Below, piece after piece: positions 16,917-25,755 of a stretch of 64,000 nt of DNA; positions within the stretch are counted from its first letter, which is position 1, and each line of letters starts with the position of its first letter. The DNA is from Dermabacter hominis NBRC 106157 (GTDB lineage: Bacteria; Actinomycetota; Actinomycetes; Actinomycetales; Dermabacteraceae): contig NZ_BCSI01000001.1 in assembly GCF_001570785.1 (NCBI RefSeq), positions 1-64,000 of the forward strand, given 5' to 3'. The notes beneath the pieces are model-generated. The model was not told the DNA's origin. It did no database searches and saw nothing but the letters and a program-made list of their open reading frames with translations. Made by a program: the position numbers and the translations under genes.

Positions 16917-17786
16917 GTGACACAGTCATACACCGCCGGCATCGACAAAGCCGTGAACGCCATGCGCGAGGCCACACCGCTCGTGCATTGCTTGACGAAT
17001 ACAGTCGTTCAAAACGTCACCGCGAACGTGTTGCTCGCCGCGGGCCAGGCTCCCGCGATGGTCGATCACCCGGGTGAGGCTGCCACGTTCGCTCAGATTG
17101 CGAGCGGCGTGCTGATTAACACGGGCACGGTCGCGCCGCACCAGGTTGAGTCGATGCCGCTCGCGGCAGAGGCAGCTGTGAAGGCGGGCGTGCCGTGGGT
17201 CCTCGATCCCGTGGCGATCGGTGCGCTCGAGGTCCGAACGTCGCTCGCGCACCGTCTGCTTGAGCTCGCGCCGACGGCGATCCGCGGCAATGCGTCGGAG
17301 ATTTCCGCGCTCGCGGGCCTCGGCGCGGGTGGTCGTGGCGTGGATGCGACCGATTCGGTGGACGACGCCTTGCCTGCCGCCGCGTCCCTCGCGGAGCGTA
17401 CAGGCGCGGTCGTTGCCGTCTCCGGCAAGCGCGATCTGATCGTGTGGGACCGCGATGGCGAGATCCGCGCGCTCTGGCTCGAATCGGGCCACGACCTCAT
17501 GCCGCGCGTGATCGGTACGGGCTGCGCGCTCGGCGCGACGATGGCCGGCTACGTGAGCATCGCGCCCGCGCTCGAGTCTCTTTTTTCCGACGCCACCTTC
17601 GCCCCCGTCGATGCGAAGGCCCTCGCGGTGCTCACGGCCCACGCGCACTTCGGTGCCGCTGGCCAGCTCGCTGGTGAGCGCGCCGAGCATCCCGGTTCGT
17701 TCGCGGTTGCGTGGATCGATGCGCTCGATGAACTGAGCGGCGCCGACATTGCCGCACGCGTGCGCGTGACCGAGGCGTCGGCATGA
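16917..17786 (+). CDS. thiM: Hydroxyethylthiazole kinase
   Basis: 289 residues. Phosphorylates 4-methyl-5-(2-hydroxyethyl)thiazole for thiamine salvage. Family marks are TPLVHCLTNTVVQNVTANVLLA, GEAATFAQIASGVLINTGT, WVLDPVAIGA, RGNASEI, and the active-site GTGCALGA with its cysteine. An in-frame ATG at 16908 overlaps the riboswitch and has no room for a ribosome-binding site, so I prefer the GTG at 16917. First gene of the riboswitch-controlled operon; its end overlaps thiE by four bases. Confidence 0.95.
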   Translation: MTQSYTAGIDKAVNAMREATPLVHCLTNTVVQNVTANVLLAAGQAPAMVDHPGEAATFAQIASGVLINTGTVAPHQVESMPLAAEAAVKAGVPWVLDPVAIGALEVRTSLAHRLLELAPTAIRGNASEISALAGLGAGGRGVDATDSVDDALPAAASLAERTGAVVAVSGKRDLIVWDRDGEIRALWLESGHDLMPRVIGTGCALGATMAGYVSIAPALESLFSDATFAPVDAKALAVLTAHAHFGAAGQLAGERAEHPGSFAVAWIDALDELSGADIAARVRVTEASA

Positions 17787-18478
17787 ACACCTCCGCTTCG
17801 CGCGAGCGCGCGGCGAAAGCCGATTGGGCGCTCTACTTCGTGACCGATTCCGCGATGGCGGGAGGTGCCGATAAGGTTCCCGCCCAGGTTGCCGAGGCAA
17901 TCGAGGGCGGCGCCCACGTAATCCAGGTGCGAGATAAGGACCTTGATGACGACGCCTTTGTCGAGCTTGCGCGCCAGGTGCGCGACGTGGCCCGCGAGGT
18001 GGGGGAGCAGCACGGCCGGGAGATTACGGTCATCGTCAATGACCGAGTGGAGGCCGCTCGCGAGCTGGGCCTCGACGTCCACGTGGGTCAGGGCGACATG
18101 CCGGCATCCCAGGTGCGTGAACTCCTCGGCGCCGAGGCGATCATCGGCGTGAGCGTGTCGAATGCCGAACAGCTCGAGGGTGTGATCGCCGAGGGCTCCG
18201 CCGACGTCGTTGGCATCGGCCCGATCTGGAACACCGCGACGAAGACGGACACGGACCCCGCCGTGGGTCTTGAGCAGCTCGCCTCTCTCACTACGCGTGC
18301 ACACGAGGCCGGTATCGTGGCGGTGGCGATCGGAGGTATTTCGATTCGCAACGCGAGCGAGGTTGCAGCCACGGGCTGTGACGGTATCTGCGTGGTTTCG
18401 GCGATCGCCGGATCCGAGGACCCCGCGACCTCCGCGACGTTTTTGCGCCGGGAGTTCGTGATGAACCAGCCGCTCTAA
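17783..18478 (+). CDS. thiE: Thiamine-phosphate synthase
   Basis: 231 residues. Joins HMP pyrophosphate and thiazole phosphate to make thiamine phosphate. TIM-barrel marks: YFVTDS at the start, VIQVRDKD, VIVNDRVEAA, DVHVGQGDMP, GVSVSN, the phosphate loop GIGPIWNTATKTD, and AIGGI. It overlaps thiM by ATGA, so the two are translationally coupled. With thiM and thiD it completes salvage of both halves of thiamine. Confidence 0.95.
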   Translation: MNTSASRERAAKADWALYFVTDSAMAGGADKVPAQVAEAIEGGAHVIQVRDKDLDDDAFVELARQVRDVAREVGEQHGREITVIVNDRVEAARELGLDVHVGQGDMPASQVRELLGAEAIIGVSVSNAEQLEGVIAEGSADVVGIGPIWNTATKTDTDPAVGLEQLASLTTRAHEAGIVAVAIGGISIRNASEVAATGCDGICVVSAIAGSEDPATSATFLRREFVMNQPL

Positions 18479-18527
18479 ATTCTTCAGCTCGATTCATACG
18501 CGAGCTGTTTTCAAGGAGGACAACACC

Positions 18528-19370
18528 ATGCGCCCACCCATTGCACTGACGATCGCCGGAAGCGACCCGAGCGGCGGCGCCGGCATCCAGGCGGACCTTA
18601 AAACGTTCACGGCGCTCGGCACATACGGCTGCGCCGTTCTCACCTCTCTCACCGCCCAGAACACGCAGGGCGTGGATGCCGTGTTTACGCCCCCCGCCTC
18701 CTTCGTGCGCGAGCAACTCACGACTTTGCTCGACGACGTTTACGTCGATGCCACGAAGATCGGCATGATTCCTAACGCCGAAGTTGCCGAGGTCATCGCC
18801 GACGTCATCGAGGAGCGCCGCAGCGATTTCGGCAAGATCGTGCTGGACCCCGTGATGGTGGCGACCTCGGGCGACATGCTGATGGAGGAGGACGCCATGG
18901 AGATTCTCCGCGATCGCCTCCTCCCGCTCGCCGACGTTCTCACGCCCAACATCCCCGAGGCCGCGCTCTTGCTCGGCGAAGACCCGGCGACCGACGAAGA
19001 AGAAATGAAAGAGCAGGGCCTCAAACTCATCAATCGCGGCCCGAAGTCAGTTCTCGTCAAGGGCGGTCATCTTCGCGGATCCGCGCTCGTCGACGTGTTC
19101 GTGCAGCTCGGCAACGTCGTGGACGTTCTCACGGGCGAGATGATCAATACGCGCAATACGCACGGCACCGGCTGTACCCTCTCGTCGGCCATCGCCGCGC
19201 AGTACGCGCGTGTGGCGGGCGGTGCCGACGCGACCGACATCGGCGTCGTGGCAAGCGCACGCGAATTCCTCCAGAGCGCGATCCTTCACGCGAAGGAGTG
19301 GGAGATCTCGAAGTCGCCCGAAAGTGGCCACGGCCCCACCAACCACCTCATTACTGTTCAGGGGGTGTGA
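18528..19370 (+). CDS. thiD: Bifunctional hydroxymethylpyrimidine (phosphate) kinase
   Basis: 280 residues. Phosphorylates HMP to HMP-P and HMP-PP. Ribokinase-fold marks: [68 protein letters not shown] and the anion-hole [13 protein letters not shown] strong AAGGAGG lies upstream of the ATG, so it can be translated well on its own. It is 49 bases from thiE and five bases from tenA, in one operon. Confidence 0.96.
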
Positions 19371-19374
19371 GAGC

Positions 19375-20073
19375 GTGACACTCATTGAGCCCGCGGGCCC
19401 GCACACGGCCCGGATGTGGGAGGAAACCAAAGACATCCGTGCGCGCATCGACGCCCTGCCGTTTCTCGCCGAACTCGGCGCCGGCACGCTCGATCCGGAA
19501 AAATTTACGTTCTACATCCAGCAGGATGCCCAGTACCTCGTCGCGTACCAAAAGACGATGACCGCTATCGCTCGCCAGGCGCCAGGGGCAGATGAGCTTC
19601 GCTTCTGGGCGAAGTCAGCCGTCGGCGCCATCGCCGAAGAAAAGGCGATGCAGGAAGAGCTCTTCTCGAACGACATCCTCGCCGCCCACCGCGTCCAAGG
19701 ACTCGGGATGAGCCTGCACACCGCGGCCTACAGCAACTTCCTGCTTGCGAGCGCCACCTACGACACGTACGCGGTTGCCGCCGCGGCCGTGCTCCCGTGC
19801 TACTGGATCTATGCCGAATCGGGCGTTGCCGTTCTTGACGCAAGCAAGGGCACGCTCGAGGGGCACCCCTACGGCACGTGGGTAGAGGCATACGCCGACG
19901 AAACGTTTACACGGATTTCTCGAGAGGCCGTGCAACTCGTCGAAGAAGCGTGCGATGCCGCAGGAGAAGCCGAACGCGAACGCGCGATCGAAGCGTTCCG
20001 ACAGGCCACTCGTTTCGAGGAACTGTTCTGGACTCAGCCCATGGACGAACCTGAGGCGCGCATCCTTATTTGA
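19375..20073 (+). CDS. tenA: Aminopyrimidine aminohydrolase (TenA/thiaminase II family)
   Basis: 232 residues from the GTG at 19375, which has AGGGGGTG seven bases upstream. TenA hydrolyses amino-HMP, a breakdown product of thiamine, to HMP for salvage. The all-helical family is recognised by FTFYIQQDAQYLVAYQKTM, the active cysteine in LPCYWIYAE and the late glutamate in RFEELFWTQPM. Last gene of the thiM-thiE-thiD-tenA operon, where its product feeds ThiD. Confidence 0.93.
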   Translation: MTLIEPAGPHTARMWEETKDIRARIDALPFLAELGAGTLDPEKFTFYIQQDAQYLVAYQKTMTAIARQAPGADELRFWAKSAVGAIAEEKAMQEELFSNDILAAHRVQGLGMSLHTAAYSNFLLASATYDTYAVAAAAVLPCYWIYAESGVAVLDASKGTLEGHPYGTWVEAYADETFTRISREAVQLVEEACDAAGEAERERAIEAFRQATRFEELFWTQPMDEPEARILI

Positions 20074-20131
20074 GCTGGCGCGGCTAGGCTTGCTCCAGAA
20101 CACATCACCGCAGTGGGAAAGAGGAGACACC

Positions 20132-22201
20132 ATGAGCGATCCGCATCTGTGGCTCGAGGACATCACCGGTGAGAAGCAGCTTGCCTGGGTGCGCGAGCGC
20201 AACGCCCGCACTGAAAAAGACCTCGACGGCGATCCGCTCACCGCTGAACTCGAAGCGGAAATCCTCGAGATCCTCAACGCGAGTGATCGGATTCCCGGCG
20301 TCACTAAGCGGGGCGACTTCCTCTACAATTTCTGGACCGACGCCGAGCATGAGCGCGGTGTGTGGCGCCGCACGACCCTCGACTCCTACCGCACCGAGAA
20401 CCCCGAGTGGGAAACCCTCATCGATGTCGACGCCCTCAACGTCGCCGAAGGCGAGGACTGGGTGTGGCACGGCGCCCACGCACTGCGTCCCGCCGAAGGC
20501 GCGCCCTATCGCCGCTTCCTCGTGAGCCTCTCGCACGGGGGAAGCGATGCCGACGTCACGCGCGAATGGGACCTCGAAACCCGCAGCTTCGTGCCGGAAA
20601 GCGAAGGCGGCTTCGTGCGGCCCGAAGCGCGCGGCTTCGTCGCGTGGATCGACGAAGACACCGTGTGGGTCGGCACCGACTTCGGCGAGGGGACGCGAAG
20701 CAATTCTGGGTACCCGCTCCAGGCGCGCGTGTGGAAACGCGGCACGGCTCTTTCCGACGCCACCCTTGTTTTCGAGGGCGACGCGCAGGACATGCTCGTC
20801 TACCCAAGCCACGACCAGACCCCCGGCTTCGAGCGCGACTGGGTCACGGTCATGCACACCTTCTACACCTCGACCACGTATGCCGTGGCTCGCGAAGGCG
20901 ACGAGTTTCAGCTCCTCAAGGTTGACGTCCCAAGCGACATCGACGTGAGCTTTCACCGCGACCTCGCGATTCTGAGGCCCCGCTCCGAATGGTCGACGGG
21001 AGACCGTACGTACGCCGCTGGCAGCCTGCTCGCGTGCGACTTCGACGCCTTCATGGCGGGAAACCGCGACTTTGACGTCCTGTTCGACCCCACCCCCACG
21101 ACTTCGCTCGACGGTCTTACGATCACGAGGGACTACCTGGTCGTGACCGTCCTCGACGACGTCAAGCATCGCTTGGTCGCCCACTATCAAAACGGCGATG
21201 GCAGCTGGGAGCGCGAGGACCTCTACCCCGGACTCACGGGATCGCTCTACGTGGCCGCCGTCGATTCCGACGAGAACAACGACGTGTGGATCACCCGCAA
21301 CGACTTCCACGTGCCCGCAACCCTCTGCCTCGCAAACCTCGACGGGATCCGCGAGGGCAGCGGCGCGGGCGAAATCGAGACGATCAAGACGACGCCCGAA
21401 CGCTTCGACGCGAGCGACGTCACCGTTACCCAGCATTTCGTTGACAGTGCAGACGGCACGCGCATCCCATACTTCGAGATCGCGAAGGCCCAGTCCACCG
21501 TCGGACCCCGCCCCACCCTGCTGTATGGCTACGGGGGTTTCGAAGTGTCGCTCACCCCGGTCTACCTCGGCGCGACCGGTAAGGCGTGGATCGAACGCGG
21601 CGGCGTGTACGTGCTCGCGAACATTCGAGGTGGCGGCGAATACGGGCCTGCATGGCACCAAGCGGGACTCAAAGAAAACCGCCACAGGGTCTACGAAGAC
21701 TTTTCGAGCGTGGCGCGCGACCTCATCGATCGCGGTGTGACCGATGCGAAGCACCTCGCCGTGCGCGGCGGCTCCAACGGCGGCCTGCTCACCGGCAACA
21801 TGCTCACGCAGTACCCCGAGCTGTTCGGCGCCGTCGTGATCCAGGTGCCGCTTTTGGACATGAAGCGCTACTCGCACCTTCTCGCTGGAGCGAGCTGGAT
21901 GGCCGAATACGGCGACCCCGACACCGACGACTGGGACTTCATCAAGACCTTCAGCCCGTACCACCTGCTGCGCGATGACGTCGAGTACCCGCCTACCTTC
22001 GTGCTCACCTCGACCCGCGACGACCGCGTTCACCCCGGCCACGCCCGCAAATTCACGGCCGCGCTCGAGGAGCTTGGCGCCCCCGTCAAGTATTGGGAAA
22101 ACGTCGAAGGCGGGCATGGCGGCGCCGCGTCCAATGCGCAAGCGGCACGCATGAACGCACTGGTCCACGCCTTTTTGTGGGCAACCGTCGGAAAGAAATA
22201 A
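20132..22201 (+). CDS. Prolyl oligopeptidase family serine peptidase (S9)
   Basis: 689 residues, the usual size. The N-terminal two-thirds form the beta-propeller; the C-terminal alpha/beta hydrolase domain has the nucleophile Ser548 in RGGSNGGL, the acid in DDRVHPGH (residues 630-631) and His662 in GGHGG. It cleaves short peptides after proline or related residues, and has no signal peptide, so it is cytoplasmic. The ATG at 20132 follows AGGAG; a longer upstream frame overlaps tenA and is not real. It lies 58 bases after tenA and 9 bases before the next hydrolase gene. Confidence 0.94.
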   Translation: MSDPHLWLEDITGEKQLAWVRERNARTEKDLDGDPLTAELEAEILEILNASDRIPGVTKRGDFLYNFWTDAEHERGVWRRTTLDSYRTENPEWETLIDVDALNVAEGEDWVWHGAHALRPAEGAPYRRFLVSLSHGGSDADVTREWDLETRSFVPESEGGFVRPEARGFVAWIDEDTVWVGTDFGEGTRSNSGYPLQARVWKRGTALSDATLVFEGDAQDMLVYPSHDQTPGFERDWVTVMHTFYTSTTYAVAREGDEFQLLKVDVPSDIDVSFHRDLAILRPRSEWSTGDRTYAAGSLLACDFDAFMAGNRDFDVLFDPTPTTSLDGLTITRDYLVVTVLDDVKHRLVAHYQNGDGSWEREDLYPGLTGSLYVAAVDSDENNDVWITRNDFHVPATLCLANLDGIREGSGAGEIETIKTTPERFDASDVTVTQHFVDSADGTRIPYFEIAKAQSTVGPRPTLLYGYGGFEVSLTPVYLGATGKAWIERGGVYVLANIRGGGEYGPAWHQAGLKENRHRVYEDFSSVARDLIDRGVTDAKHLAVRGGSNGGLLTGNMLTQYPELFGAVVIQVPLLDMKRYSHLLAGASWMAEYGDPDTDDWDFIKTFSPYHLLRDDVEYPPTFVLTSTRDDRVHPGHARKFTAALEELGAPVKYWENVEGGHGGAASNAQAARMNALVHAFLWATVGKK

Positions 22202-22210
22202 ACCGAGCGC

Positions 22211-23548
22211 ATGGACCTATACGACCGCCCTGCCGCGAACGAGCTTCTCGCCTCCCGCAATGACGTGATGACCGTCTACCGGGAGTTCGAGAACTCCGAA
22301 GGGCGCCTCTTCCCGCTCAGGTATGTGCGGGCCGGCTATCAGTCCGAGCTTCCCACGATCATGGTCCTTCCCGACGGGCCGGGCGTTGCGAGCGTGTTCC
22401 CGTACGAGATTCTGCGGCGGGACATGGTTAAAAAGGGACTCGACGTCATCATGATGGAGCATCGAGGCGTAGGCATGAGCCGCGCGGATGCCCAGGGTAA
22501 TGACCTTCCGGTCAACGTCATGCGGGTCGAAAACGTGCTCGACGACGTCCGTGCAGTGCTCGACCATGCCCAAGTGCCAAAGGTCGTGCTCTACGGGACG
22601 GGCTACGGCGCCTACATCGCGCAACGGTTCGCCCTGCGCCACCCGGAGCGCGTGTTCTCGATGGTTCTTGACTCGCCCTTCACGGGCGTGCGCGACGGGC
22701 GCGCCCTGCGCGAGCTTATGCGAGATTTGTATTGGCGCGGCACATTCGACGCTACCGAATCGATCGCCCGCGCCGTGCGGATGCTCGTCGAGCAGCGAAT
22801 CGTGCCCGCCGAAGAAACCGGTGCGGTACTGGCCGCCGTCCACGAATACGGCGGCGTGAACTCCGTGCGGGACCTCGTGGATCTTCTCGTTCAGGGGCGC
22901 GGGCAGCTCGCGTGGGCGTCGATCCACCAAATCATCGCGGGCCGCGAGTGGTTCAACACCACGCCCTACGTATATGAGAACGATCTGGCTGGCCGCATTT
23001 CCGCGACCGAACTCGGATTTGCCGAGGCCAGCGACGGCAAGCCGCTCGACCCGCTCACCGTATACGCGCGTCGCGCTGCACAGTTCCCGCCGTTCACGGG
23101 GGAGAGCTTTGACCTGGAAACGGCGAGGCGCTCAATCACGACTCCCACGCTCGTCGTGGGCGGGGCGCGCGATGTGATCGTGCCGCTGTGGCGCTCGCGC
23201 CTCGCAGCCGACGAAATTCCCGGCGCCCACGTCGGATCCGATCCGTCGAATCCAAGGCTGCGATTCATCTCCGCACACAACGTCGGCCACGCCCTCATCG
23301 ACTCGCATATCGAGCTTTCTGTCGTCGCGATGCGCTGGGCCGCCGCGGGTGCGATTGATGCCCTCCTCGATCGCGACATCAGTTCGCTCAATCGCAGCGT
23401 GCGTAACGAGGCCTACGGCCGGGGAATCCGCACGGCGCTTCTCGCCGAGCAGTATTCACCGCTCAAACTCTGGTCGGTTCGCTCGCTCGCCGCGGGGCCG
23501 CTCGCCTCCGCCGATGCCCGCGGACCTCGAGGGCTCACTCGCCGCTAG
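22211..23548 (+). CDS. Alpha/beta hydrolase of the proline-iminopeptidase type, nucleophile missing
   Basis: 445 residues. The fold and the oxyanion-hole motif (LPDGPG, compare HGGPG) follow the S33 prolyl aminopeptidase family, and the acid (Asp321 in GGARDVIVP) and base (His360 in HNVGHALID) are in place. The nucleophile elbow reads G-T-G-Y-G: the expected serine is Gly131, codon GGC, one base from AGC. The protein is therefore probably not a hydrolase, or uses another residue. It begins nine bases after the prolyl oligopeptidase gene and is convergent with the DUF2079 gene (three-base gap). Confidence 0.85.
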   Translation: MDLYDRPAANELLASRNDVMTVYREFENSEGRLFPLRYVRAGYQSELPTIMVLPDGPGVASVFPYEILRRDMVKKGLDVIMMEHRGVGMSRADAQGNDLPVNVMRVENVLDDVRAVLDHAQVPKVVLYGTGYGAYIAQRFALRHPERVFSMVLDSPFTGVRDGRALRELMRDLYWRGTFDATESIARAVRMLVEQRIVPAEETGAVLAAVHEYGGVNSVRDLVDLLVQGRGQLAWASIHQIIAGREWFNTTPYVYENDLAGRISATELGFAEASDGKPLDPLTVYARRAAQFPPFTGESFDLETARRSITTPTLVVGGARDVIVPLWRSRLAADEIPGAHVGSDPSNPRLRFISAHNVGHALIDSHIELSVVAMRWAAAGAIDALLDRDISSLNRSVRNEAYGRGIRTALLAEQYSPLKLWSVRSLAAGPLASADARGPRGLTRR

Positions 23549-23551
23549 GAA

Positions 23552-25366
23552 TCACTCGCTTTTGGGGCCGCCTTGGCATGCGACCTGCACGTAAGCATTC
23601 GCAAACACGAGTTCGTACGGCTTGCGCGCGCTCGTGATGACGGATGCGCCGTTGAGGTGTTCAGGTTTTGCGCTCGCATTCGCAGGCCACTTCGCATTTG
23701 CCCACGCGGCCCAACCGCCGGGGAACTGCTCCTGCTCGCGCGCTCCGTACACGCCCGCAACGCATTCGGGTGCCCGCTTCGTCTCGCCGTGCATCCACTG
23801 CACGTCGTTCGTCGCCACGAGCGGGGCCATCAAGCGAATGTCGCTCGCGACCGTCACGCCCTTGGGCACATGCGCCTGCCCCTCTCGAGCGGCATTGGCG
23901 AACGCCGAATTCGGGTTGAGCGCCCCGGTTGCGATCCACGTGAGGGGAAGCGAGGTTGCGAGATACGCGGTCGACAGGATCGAGAGGGCAACGCCGAGGC
24001 GTTTCGTCCACAGCTGTGCTTTTTGCGGCGCGAGCGGGCGTTCGCGCAGCTCAGCCAGATGCGTGAGCGCAGCTCCCCGCACGTGCGGGAGGGTCGCAAG
24101 GAGCGCCGCGAACGCGATCGGCATGAGGAACGAGTTGTAGTGCCACTGCCAGGTCCAATAGTGCTCGACGGAACCGAGGAACCGCCAGGCAAGCGTCGGA
24201 AGAAGACCGAGCGCAAGTGGACTCGTGACCCCCACGACGCCCATGAACGCCACGAACATGAGCACCGTTTGCCACTTCACGAGCGGCGTGAAGGCCTGCG
24301 TGAGCGGCGCAAAATTCTCCGTGTACACGTACGCGCTCGCGGGGCTCAGCGCCGGCAAAATCACCCAGGTGGCGAGGACAAACCACACGAGGCCCCACGC
24401 GGCAAGCAGCAGCGCGTAGCGGGGTTTCTTTTCCGACGTTAGCCTCGCAACCGTCGCGCGGCGCCTCTGCGAGGGGCTTCCCGCTTCGAGCCCCGGAGTA
24501 CGCCACATCCACGCCATCGCGAAGCCGAGCATCATCACGGTGAGACCCAGATCTTCCTTGACGAACACAAGCGCGCCGATCCACAGGAGCGCTGCCTTCG
24601 ATCGGTTCTCGAGGAAGGCGGCGAGACCGAATGCCACGAAGAGAACGGCGAACGCATACTCGTGAAATTGGACGTTCTGGCTACCTTGGAGCCCGAAGGA
24701 GAACGCGTAGCCGGCGCCGGCAAGCATGCCGAGTCGCGGACCGAGTTTCGCCATTGCGACGCGTGTGAGTGGGTACACGCTTGCCCCAAACAGCGCGGCC
24801 TGCGCCCACAGCAGCACGGCTGGTGACGGCCACAACCACCACAGGGGCGCGAGCAGTACGAGGACTGGGTGGAAGTGGTCGCCGAGTAGGTTGAAGTTGT
24901 CGCCCTTGATCGGAACGATCGGGGCATTGACGTGCGCATACTCCTTGACGGCTTCGGCGAAGATACCCAGATCCCAGCTCGGGAAGAAGTACGAATCCCA
25001 CTGGAGCATCGAGAGCCACCCGTAGAGCGTGGTCGCAGCGAGCGCCAGGCCGAGCGGGGCGAGGCGCATGGGGTCCAGGACCGCGTCGAGGAAGGAGTCG
25101 GTGCGAGACCGCGGGTGACTGTCGCGGCCACCGTGTTCGGGTGCTGCGCTGGGAATGCTGCCTTCGCGTGCGCCTGCACTTGCACTAGAAGACTCGTTCT
25201 CGCTCGTGCATGAGCTGACGATGGCTGCGCGTGCGCGTCGGCGTGTGGTGCCTGTCGTGGTGCTGTTCGCGCTCGAGTTTGCGTCTGTATGCTCAGGGTG
25301 CGAAGTTGTCACGCGCCCCATTGTGCCAGGCATGCGCTTCGACGGGACCGTTTTCACGATGCGCAT
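23552..25366 (-). CDS. DUF2079 family polytopic membrane protein
   Basis: About 604 residues from the ATG at 25366; the start is uncertain, with in-frame ATG at 25333 and 25321 and GTG at 25312 also possible, and none has a clear ribosome-binding site. The first 100 residues are hydrophilic and Ser/Thr/Arg-rich. About ten membrane segments follow. The motifs SWDLGIFAEAVKEYAH, GDHFHPVLVLLAPLWWLWPSP and FHEYAFAVLF match DUF2079, a family related to GT-C-fold glycosyltransferases and of unknown substrate. Last native gene before the copper island. Confidence 0.85.
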   Translation of the reverse strand: MRIVKTVPSKRMPGTMGRVTTSHPEHTDANSSANSTTTGTTRRRARAAIVSSCTSENESSSASAGAREGSIPSAAPEHGGRDSHPRSRTDSFLDAVLDPMRLAPLGLALAATTLYGWLSMLQWDSYFFPSWDLGIFAEAVKEYAHVNAPIVPIKGDNFNLLGDHFHPVLVLLAPLWWLWPSPAVLLWAQAALFGASVYPLTRVAMAKLGPRLGMLAGAGYAFSFGLQGSQNVQFHEYAFAVLFVAFGLAAFLENRSKAALLWIGALVFVKEDLGLTVMMLGFAMAWMWRTPGLEAGSPSQRRRATVARLTSEKKPRYALLLAAWGLVWFVLATWVILPALSPASAYVYTENFAPLTQAFTPLVKWQTVLMFVAFMGVVGVTSPLALGLLPTLAWRFLGSVEHYWTWQWHYNSFLMPIAFAALLATLPHVRGAALTHLAELRERPLAPQKAQLWTKRLGVALSILSTAYLATSLPLTWIATGALNPNSAFANAAREGQAHVPKGVTVASDIRLMAPLVATNDVQWMHGETKRAPECVAGVYGAREQEQFPGGWAAWANAKWPANASAKPEHLNGASVITSARKPYELVFANAYVQVACQGGPKSE

Positions 25367-25755
25367 GCAACTAGACCCGGCTCGTGGTGGTCGGTTCTTA
25401 GCGTTGGGAGCGCCCTCGTTTCTTTTCCGCCCCCCTTGCCCCGCTTCTTGCGCTAGTTCAAGCGGCGATTTTCGCTCTAAGGTGGGGACAGCCCCGCAAC
25501 CCCCCAATCAAAGCTGCCCTGCCGGCAGACCAGGGCGGCTGTGTGAGTATCGGACAATAGTGCGTAGTCCTCCAAGGGTCTGGACACAGGAGTTTTCCCC
25601 TTTCCTCAGTGGTGCGACCAGAGGGAGAAGAAACATCCACCCCGGTGCACCCGCTGCGGTGACAACGACCCATCGCCCGCAGCAGATGGCAATCGTTACG
25701 GTTATCCCTCTTTTTCAGATTCCTGTCCTCGGGATCAGAAAAAGACGGGGGCCTG
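25367..25755. other. Left junction of the copper island; no gene recognised
   Basis: Native upstream sequence of the DUF2079 gene gives way to sequence of different style between about 25450 and 25700. On the plus strand a frame from about 25640 contains a CTRCG zinc-ribbon-like pattern followed by disrupted sequence, which may be a decayed transposase start, but I cannot assign it. No inverted repeat shared with the right junction was found by eye. Confidence 0.4.
25709..25745 (-). terminator. Possible terminator at the end of the copper gene unit
   Basis: A 12-bp inverted repeat with one mismatch (25709-25720 with 25734-25745), including a run of five A/T pairs at its base. It is 11 bases beyond the stop codon of the broken lipoprotein gene and would end the copZ-copB transcript. 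Confidence 0.45.

Follow-up and report, generated by a model that had tools for sequence, protein, structure and literature searches.

The window, by which we mean the whole stretch of 64,000 nucleotides analysed here (positions 1 to 64,000 of contig NZ_BCSI01000001.1 of Dermabacter hominis NBRC 106157), contains a gene for a protein of the alpha/beta-hydrolase fold in which the nucleophile serine is replaced, lying directly behind the gene for a prolyl oligopeptidase. The features of this locus are as follows.

20129..22201, plus strand: prolyl oligopeptidase of family S9, its triad motifs intact, located upstream of the hydrolase gene with 9 nt between them (Peptidase_S9, 4.2e-45)
22211..23548, plus strand: Ser-less alpha/beta-hydrolase-fold protein of the Asp55/Gly131 type, 445 aa (ORF and translation, Pfam, structure model, fold search)
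22370..22384, plus strand: oxyanion loop P54-D55-G56-P57-G58 (aligned with Ser-type rows; matches the HGGPG of proline iminopeptidases)
22601..22603, plus strand: Gly131 (GGC), at the nucleophile position (codon read, alignment)
23171..23173, plus strand: Asp321 (GAT), the triad acid, kept (alignment; Asn in L011 and L026)
23288..23290, plus strand: His360 (CAC), the triad histidine, kept (alignment; Phe in L062 and L063)
23552..25507, minus strand: DUF2079 membrane protein, convergent (Pfam; near the hydrolase gene in most family loci examined)

The frame at 22211-23548 opens with ATG and runs uninterrupted through 445 translated codons. Its nucleophile elbow reads G-T-G131-Y-G, and Gly131, Asp321 and His360 align with the nucleophile Ser, the acid and the His of Ser-type homologues. 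The ORF, the codon and the alignment therefore agree with a preliminary description of this DNA, in which Gly (GGC) was said to replace the nucleophile Ser with the Asp, the His and the frame intact. A second substitution lies in the oxyanion loop, where Asp55 (GAC, 22373-22375) stands at a position that is Gly in all 53 Ser-type rows of the alignment. The protein matches the Pfam families Hydrolase_4 (4.9e-15) and Abhydrolase_1 (4.1e-14) and, more weakly, Ndr (4.5e-9; 35.9 bits against a gathering score of 23.3), the best stretch of the latter match covering residues 102-155 only. A Ser-type orthologue also scores above the Ndr cut-off (27.8 bits) and this match is therefore not specific. An AlphaFold model built from 19 sequences (mean pLDDT 75.4, pTM 0.81) places residue 131 between a strand (125-130) and a helix (132-143), as in a normal nucleophile elbow, and residues 54-58 directly after strand 49-53, as in a normal oxyanion loop, with moderate confidence in the block around this loop (mean pLDDT 67 for residues 51-60). 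The top structures in a fold search with the model were esterases and proline iminopeptidases, with Z scores of 21.6-21.9 to the tricorn-interacting factor F1 (1mtz) and the Mycobacterium smegmatis iminopeptidase PIP (3nwo), level with the esterases. In the cap, Glu256 is present in 91/91 and Asp258 in 90/91 rows (L061, L069, L116 and L123 being left out of this count), and R6, R37, H211, W376 and P417 are family-specific residues common to Ser and Ser-less members. A role in anti-phage defence was rejected, there being just a weak TAP-like match (1.2e-4).

The distribution of residue 131 was followed in a sample with one genome per species, in which the gene was counted as present at E <= 1e-30. 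It was found in 44 of the 47 genomes of the window's family, the Dermabacteraceae. Residue 131 is Gly in 40 of these orthologues, Asp in two (L035 and L057) and Ser in two, one of them from the window genus (L004) and the other from a neighbouring genus (L005), a Ser nucleophile thus being absent from 42 of the 44. All 51 of the paralogues and outside homologues have Ser131 and Gly55. These comprise 17 actinobacterial loci (L038-L054) found by a pattern scan whose output is confined to close relatives, six paralogues from the family, L071 from another family and 27 order-level hits; the outside homologues were best hits in a sample of 396 genomes of the order, and all 28 places outside the family with E <= 1e-40 were read. 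Second copies of the same protein were left out before counting, and two sequences were removed before alignment, L055, which has a Ser motif in a broken frame, and L056, which is very distant and has an unlike motif. The elbow of L035 and L057 reads GSDYG, as in epoxide hydrolases, and is accompanied by Gly in the oxyanion loop; Asn replaces Asp321 in L011 and L026, which are sister orthologues. The case of a mutation in a single strain whose orthologues all have Ser, which the preliminary description had itself raised, is excluded by this alignment. A pseudogene was likewise rejected, since Gly131 is found family-wide and the gene is under purifying selection, and these two findings together place Gly131 beyond chance.

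The loss of Ser comes paired with a second change. Ser types carry GGPG as their oxyanion-loop motif and most Ser-less members carry DGP. The first Gly of GGPG, residue 55, is replaced by Asp in 38 of the 40 proteins with Gly131; every member with Ser131 or Asp131 has Gly there. Over 95 rows the pair 55/131 is thus D/G in 38 (36 full rows and two fragments that end before His360), G/D in two, G/S in 53 and G/G in two, and neither D/S nor D/D was seen among them. Exactly one Asp is therefore present in 40 of the 42 Ser-less orthologues, 38 times within the oxyanion loop and twice at the elbow, and every Asp-bearing row long enough to include position 360 (36 D/G and two G/D, 38 in all) retains the His. 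Both G/G rows (L062 and L063, of genus g3) have Phe360, the sole replacement of this His among rows that reach the position; in these two proteins Ser and His have been lost and no Asp gained, yet selection still acts on the gene (dN/dS 0.076) and the oligopeptidase still precedes it. When the whole protein was scanned for positions with one residue in the three Gly types of the window genus and the majority of genus g5 (probably Brachybacterium), and another in L004, L005 and the majority of outside homologues, only 2 of 445 positions showed this pattern, namely 55 and 131. Positions 25 and 200 come nearest, with the window genus sharing the g5 majority residue against one shared by L004 and L005, the outside majority having a third. 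Among polar residues present in all 36 full D/G rows, D55 alone is absent from both L004 and L005. A replacement Ser, Thr or Cys nucleophile nearby was rejected: across the 36 full D/G rows no such residue was found in at least 90% of them that was also absent from both L004 and L005, and the residue at 130 varies (T12, V11, S6, C5, A2). Dependent evolution of sites 55 and 131 was favoured (LR 23.5 with the root fixed, p 1e-4; LR 24.8 with a flat root) in a test that rests on few events and in which some fitted rates reached their limits.

A tree of the hydrolases (67 rows, with columns 55, 131 and 360 removed and the fragment L069 left out) gathers the 43 family orthologues that it includes into a single clade (100/100). 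L004 and L005 join the window genus there (100/100) and stand outside the g5 clade, and the two Gly/Asp rows, L035 and L057, sit on separate branches. A single origin of the switch was rejected, both when the 37 D/G rows were forced together (p-AU 8.5e-7) and when the 41 Ser-less rows were (0.0038), in a test that presumes groups named beforehand and was here applied to groups read off the data. With both groupings rejected and the G/D rows on separate branches, the switch must have occurred repeatedly, through either convergent loss or reversal. Whether Ser was kept or regained in L004 and L005 makes little difference to the likelihood (lnL -22.46 with regain, -23.13 without). The Ser codon is TCN in 51 of 53 cases and AGC in L005 and L098; AGC in L005 is the codon expected after a one-step reversal from Gly to Ser, and TCC in L004 fits retention. 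In a tree of the oligopeptidases the L004 genome again groups with the window genus (0.99). The L005 genome is placed differently there than in the hydrolase tree, an observation that bears on horizontal transfer of the hydrolase gene.

A counting method gave dN/dS ratios of 0.022, 0.026 and 0.030 when the three window-genus genomes of the Gly type were compared with one another, of 0.10-0.20 for seven g5 pairs and of 0.076 for the pair from g3. Two Ser-type pairs, presumably of Microbacterium, gave 0.075 and 0.094, which are below the seven g5 pairs and show that constraint is not generally tighter in Ser-less members; more distant pairs gave 0.20 (L001-L004) and 0.40 (L004-L005). Two pairs from the window genus give ratios of about 0.10 and 0.12 for the oligopeptidase. 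The contrast with the hydrolase comes partly from dS, since the window and G001 differ by a dN of 0.012 in the hydrolase and 0.030 in the oligopeptidase, with a dS of 0.53 and 0.30 respectively.

The oligopeptidase itself was described beforehand as active-looking, and its Peptidase_S9 match together with GGSNGG, DDRVHPGH and GGHG in the translation confirms this. By coordinates, each genome with the hydrolase gene (44/44) has an oligopeptidase gene directly upstream of it, at most about 1 kb away and on the same strand of the same contig. A detailed reading of 34 loci from 33 genomes (L037 and L075 being the same) found the motifs GGSNGG, DDRVHPGH and GGH intact in all 34 and a candidate hydrolase start that overlaps the oligopeptidase stop or lies <=10 nt from it in 18. 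A gap of about 670-740 nt separates the genes in eight of these loci, and all seven gaps that were read contain a same-strand frame of 219-227 codons. The loci with this frame of some 220 codons (L057, L058, L060, L076, L078, L080 and L090) are from g5, and in L058, the one scanned, its product is a mycothiol-S-transferase (PF04978). Across the family the oligopeptidase is present in 46 and the hydrolase in 44 of the 47 genomes; the hydrolase never occurs without the oligopeptidase, and two genomes of different genera (G006 and G008) have the oligopeptidase and lack the hydrolase gene. No oligopeptidase was found near paralogous or outside, non-orthologous, loci (0/26, in loci of 9-17 kb, several with a short flank on one side). 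Both genes are in pieces in L069 (genome G063), possibly through assembly errors. Directly upstream of the oligopeptidase gene, positions 17783-20073 of the window hold what we take to be ThiE-, ThiD- and TenA-like thiamine genes, and the gene order there is the same in L072-L075. The DUF2079 gene is at most a candidate for a further member of the hydrolase-oligopeptidase group.

The paired swap in many species and the intact-looking oligopeptidase that adjoins it make this protein look like a kept, re-purposed relative of the hydrolases rather than a broken gene. A decaying gene or an artefact of annotation is very improbable: the catalytic Ser has been lost, and His360 as well in L062 and L063, but dN/dS is 0.02-0.03 among the window-genus Gly types (for g5, 0.10-0.20 over seven pairs; for g3, 0.076), frames are intact in nearly all genomes and the oligopeptidase is a constant neighbour. 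Our preferred explanation, to which we give a probability of a little under one half (about 0.47), is that the protein, a Ser-less relative of hydrolases of the proline-iminopeptidase type, is not a serine hydrolase and acts as a conserved partner of the oligopeptidase, keeping a predicted peptide-binding pocket. In its favour are the loss of Ser with a coupled acid, the retained cap acids Glu256 and Asp258, purifying selection, the constant oligopeptidase neighbour, the like pair of residues in NDRG1 and NDRG3 and the effect of an oxyanion-hole Asp on ester hydrolysis in blowfly E3. The Asp55 carboxylate may fill the space of the lost Ser side chain beside His360 and would at the same time spoil the oxyanion hole, so that acyl-enzyme chemistry would be lost in the Asp55/Gly131 protein. 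The pocket could then bind peptide ends, for example the free N-termini of oligopeptidase products, and these might be sensed, held or handed over, or the oligopeptidase tuned. Against this stand the conservation of His360 and, mostly, of Asp321, residues for which a pure binder would have no use, the dN/dS of the seven g5 pairs, above that of the Ser-type pairs, the presence of the oligopeptidase alone in G006 and G008, and the gap between the genes in 8 of 34 loci. The suggestion in the preliminary description that the protein may be a pseudoenzyme fares well in so far as it is a conserved protein without a Ser nucleophile whose link to the oligopeptidase is family-wide, and less well in that it took account of only the Ser-to-Gly half of the change. 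Another nucleophile, named there as a finding that would overturn that suggestion, is partly in play, through Asp55 with His360. Since the change is coupled to that of Gly55 to Asp, and an acid is found at 131 itself in two orthologues, a dead enzyme is not the sole reading.

The near-constant single acid at 55/131 argues for a chemical role, and an explanation nearly as good as the partner is that of a re-tooled enzyme in which the carboxylate of Asp55 or Asp131 would act with His360 as nucleophile or general base, the catalytic group having moved. Tentative as this is, it would account for one Asp at either position in nearly all Ser-less orthologues, the Gly55/Asp131 form on two separate branches, the retention of His360 wherever that Asp is present and its loss in the two G/G rows, which lack Asp and Ser alike, and the standing of D55 as the only polar residue of all full D/G rows that L004 and L005 both lack. 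An oxyanion-hole Asp is moreover able to orient a water in blowfly esterase E3, according to passages of PMC3812244. Set against it are the Asn at 321 in L011 and L026 and the inactivity reported in PMC7022630 for NDRG3, whose sequence has the same Asp and Gly pair. The more specific and rather doubtful idea that a catalytic carboxylate migrates between loops would make the reactive residue, within a single orthologous gene pair, a Ser at the elbow, an Asp at the elbow or an Asp offered from the oxyanion loop, always alongside the same His; if true, the last of these forms would represent a catalytic layout new to the alpha/beta-hydrolase fold. Surface protein-protein contact, as proposed for neuroligins and NDRG, would be the function of a purely structural pseudoenzyme in which a salt bridge of Asp55 or Asp131 with His360 stabilises the fold. 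The NDRG precedent, the side chain at 55 or 131 and never at both, the dependence of these sites and the family-specific residues common to Ser and Ser-less members are consistent with such a protein, but the cap acids Glu256 and Asp258 are kept, and we consider it improbable. The protein draws attention to a companion of bacterial prolyl oligopeptidases that has gone unstudied. It also offers natural orthologues in one conserved setting with active sites that differ by a coupled two-residue switch, which makes the loss or change of hydrolase chemistry testable with natural proteins.

A search of titles and abstract beginnings in open-licence papers found no literature on this protein. Comparison was made with other members of the fold. 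The S33 proline iminopeptidases (F1, 1mtz; the cold-active PIP, 5yhp) resemble it in fold, in the position of the GGPG loop and in the triad Asp and His; in contrast to them it has Gly for the nucleophile Ser, lacks GxSxG and has P-D-G-P-G in place of HGGPG, with Asp55 for the first Gly. It falls short of the NCBIfam prolyl aminopeptidase models TIGR01249 (24.6 of 259.75 bits) and TIGR01250 (35.6 of 167.65 bits). Position 55 aligns with Gly36 of H35-G36-G37-P38-G39 in F1, an alignment that is weak alone (E 0.33), but the alignment of a Ser-type relative with PIP 5yhp matches this loop motif too (5.6e-13). An Ala mutant of the next residue in F1, Gly37, is inactive according to the title of entry 1xqv.

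In epoxide hydrolases and haloalkane dehalogenases an elbow Asp works with His. Their GxDxG elbow, with His and Asp, is like that of L035 and L057, whereas the window protein has Gly131 at the elbow and its Asp in the oxyanion loop. Neuroligins have Gly at the nucleophile position, and to our knowledge no linked Asp; like the window protein they have replaced catalytic residues, but they belong to another subfamily. Passages of PMC7022630 describe replacement of the catalytic residues of the fold in neuroligins and other non-enzymatic cholinesterase-like proteins. In blowfly esterase E3 a Gly-to-Asp change in the oxyanion hole is described, in passages of PMC3812244, as disrupting carboxylester hydrolysis and orienting a water, although this site need not equal the loop Gly55. 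Both substitutions of the window protein are present in the NDRG proteins (PF03096): NDRG1 (6zmm) and NDRG3 (9kcl, 6l4b) have H-D-I-G in the loop where iminopeptidases have H-G-G-P, and an elbow of G-T-G-A-G or G-V-G-A-G. Should this pair prove to mark NDRG proteins, it might serve as a signature of non-serine members of the large fold family and help to correct automatic annotation as 'hydrolase'. The entire triad of NDRG3 is replaced and it is reported to be without hydrolase activity, according to PMC7022630, whereas the window protein keeps Asp321 and His360; as its nearest relatives are moreover of the Ser type, its likeness to NDRG is probably convergent.
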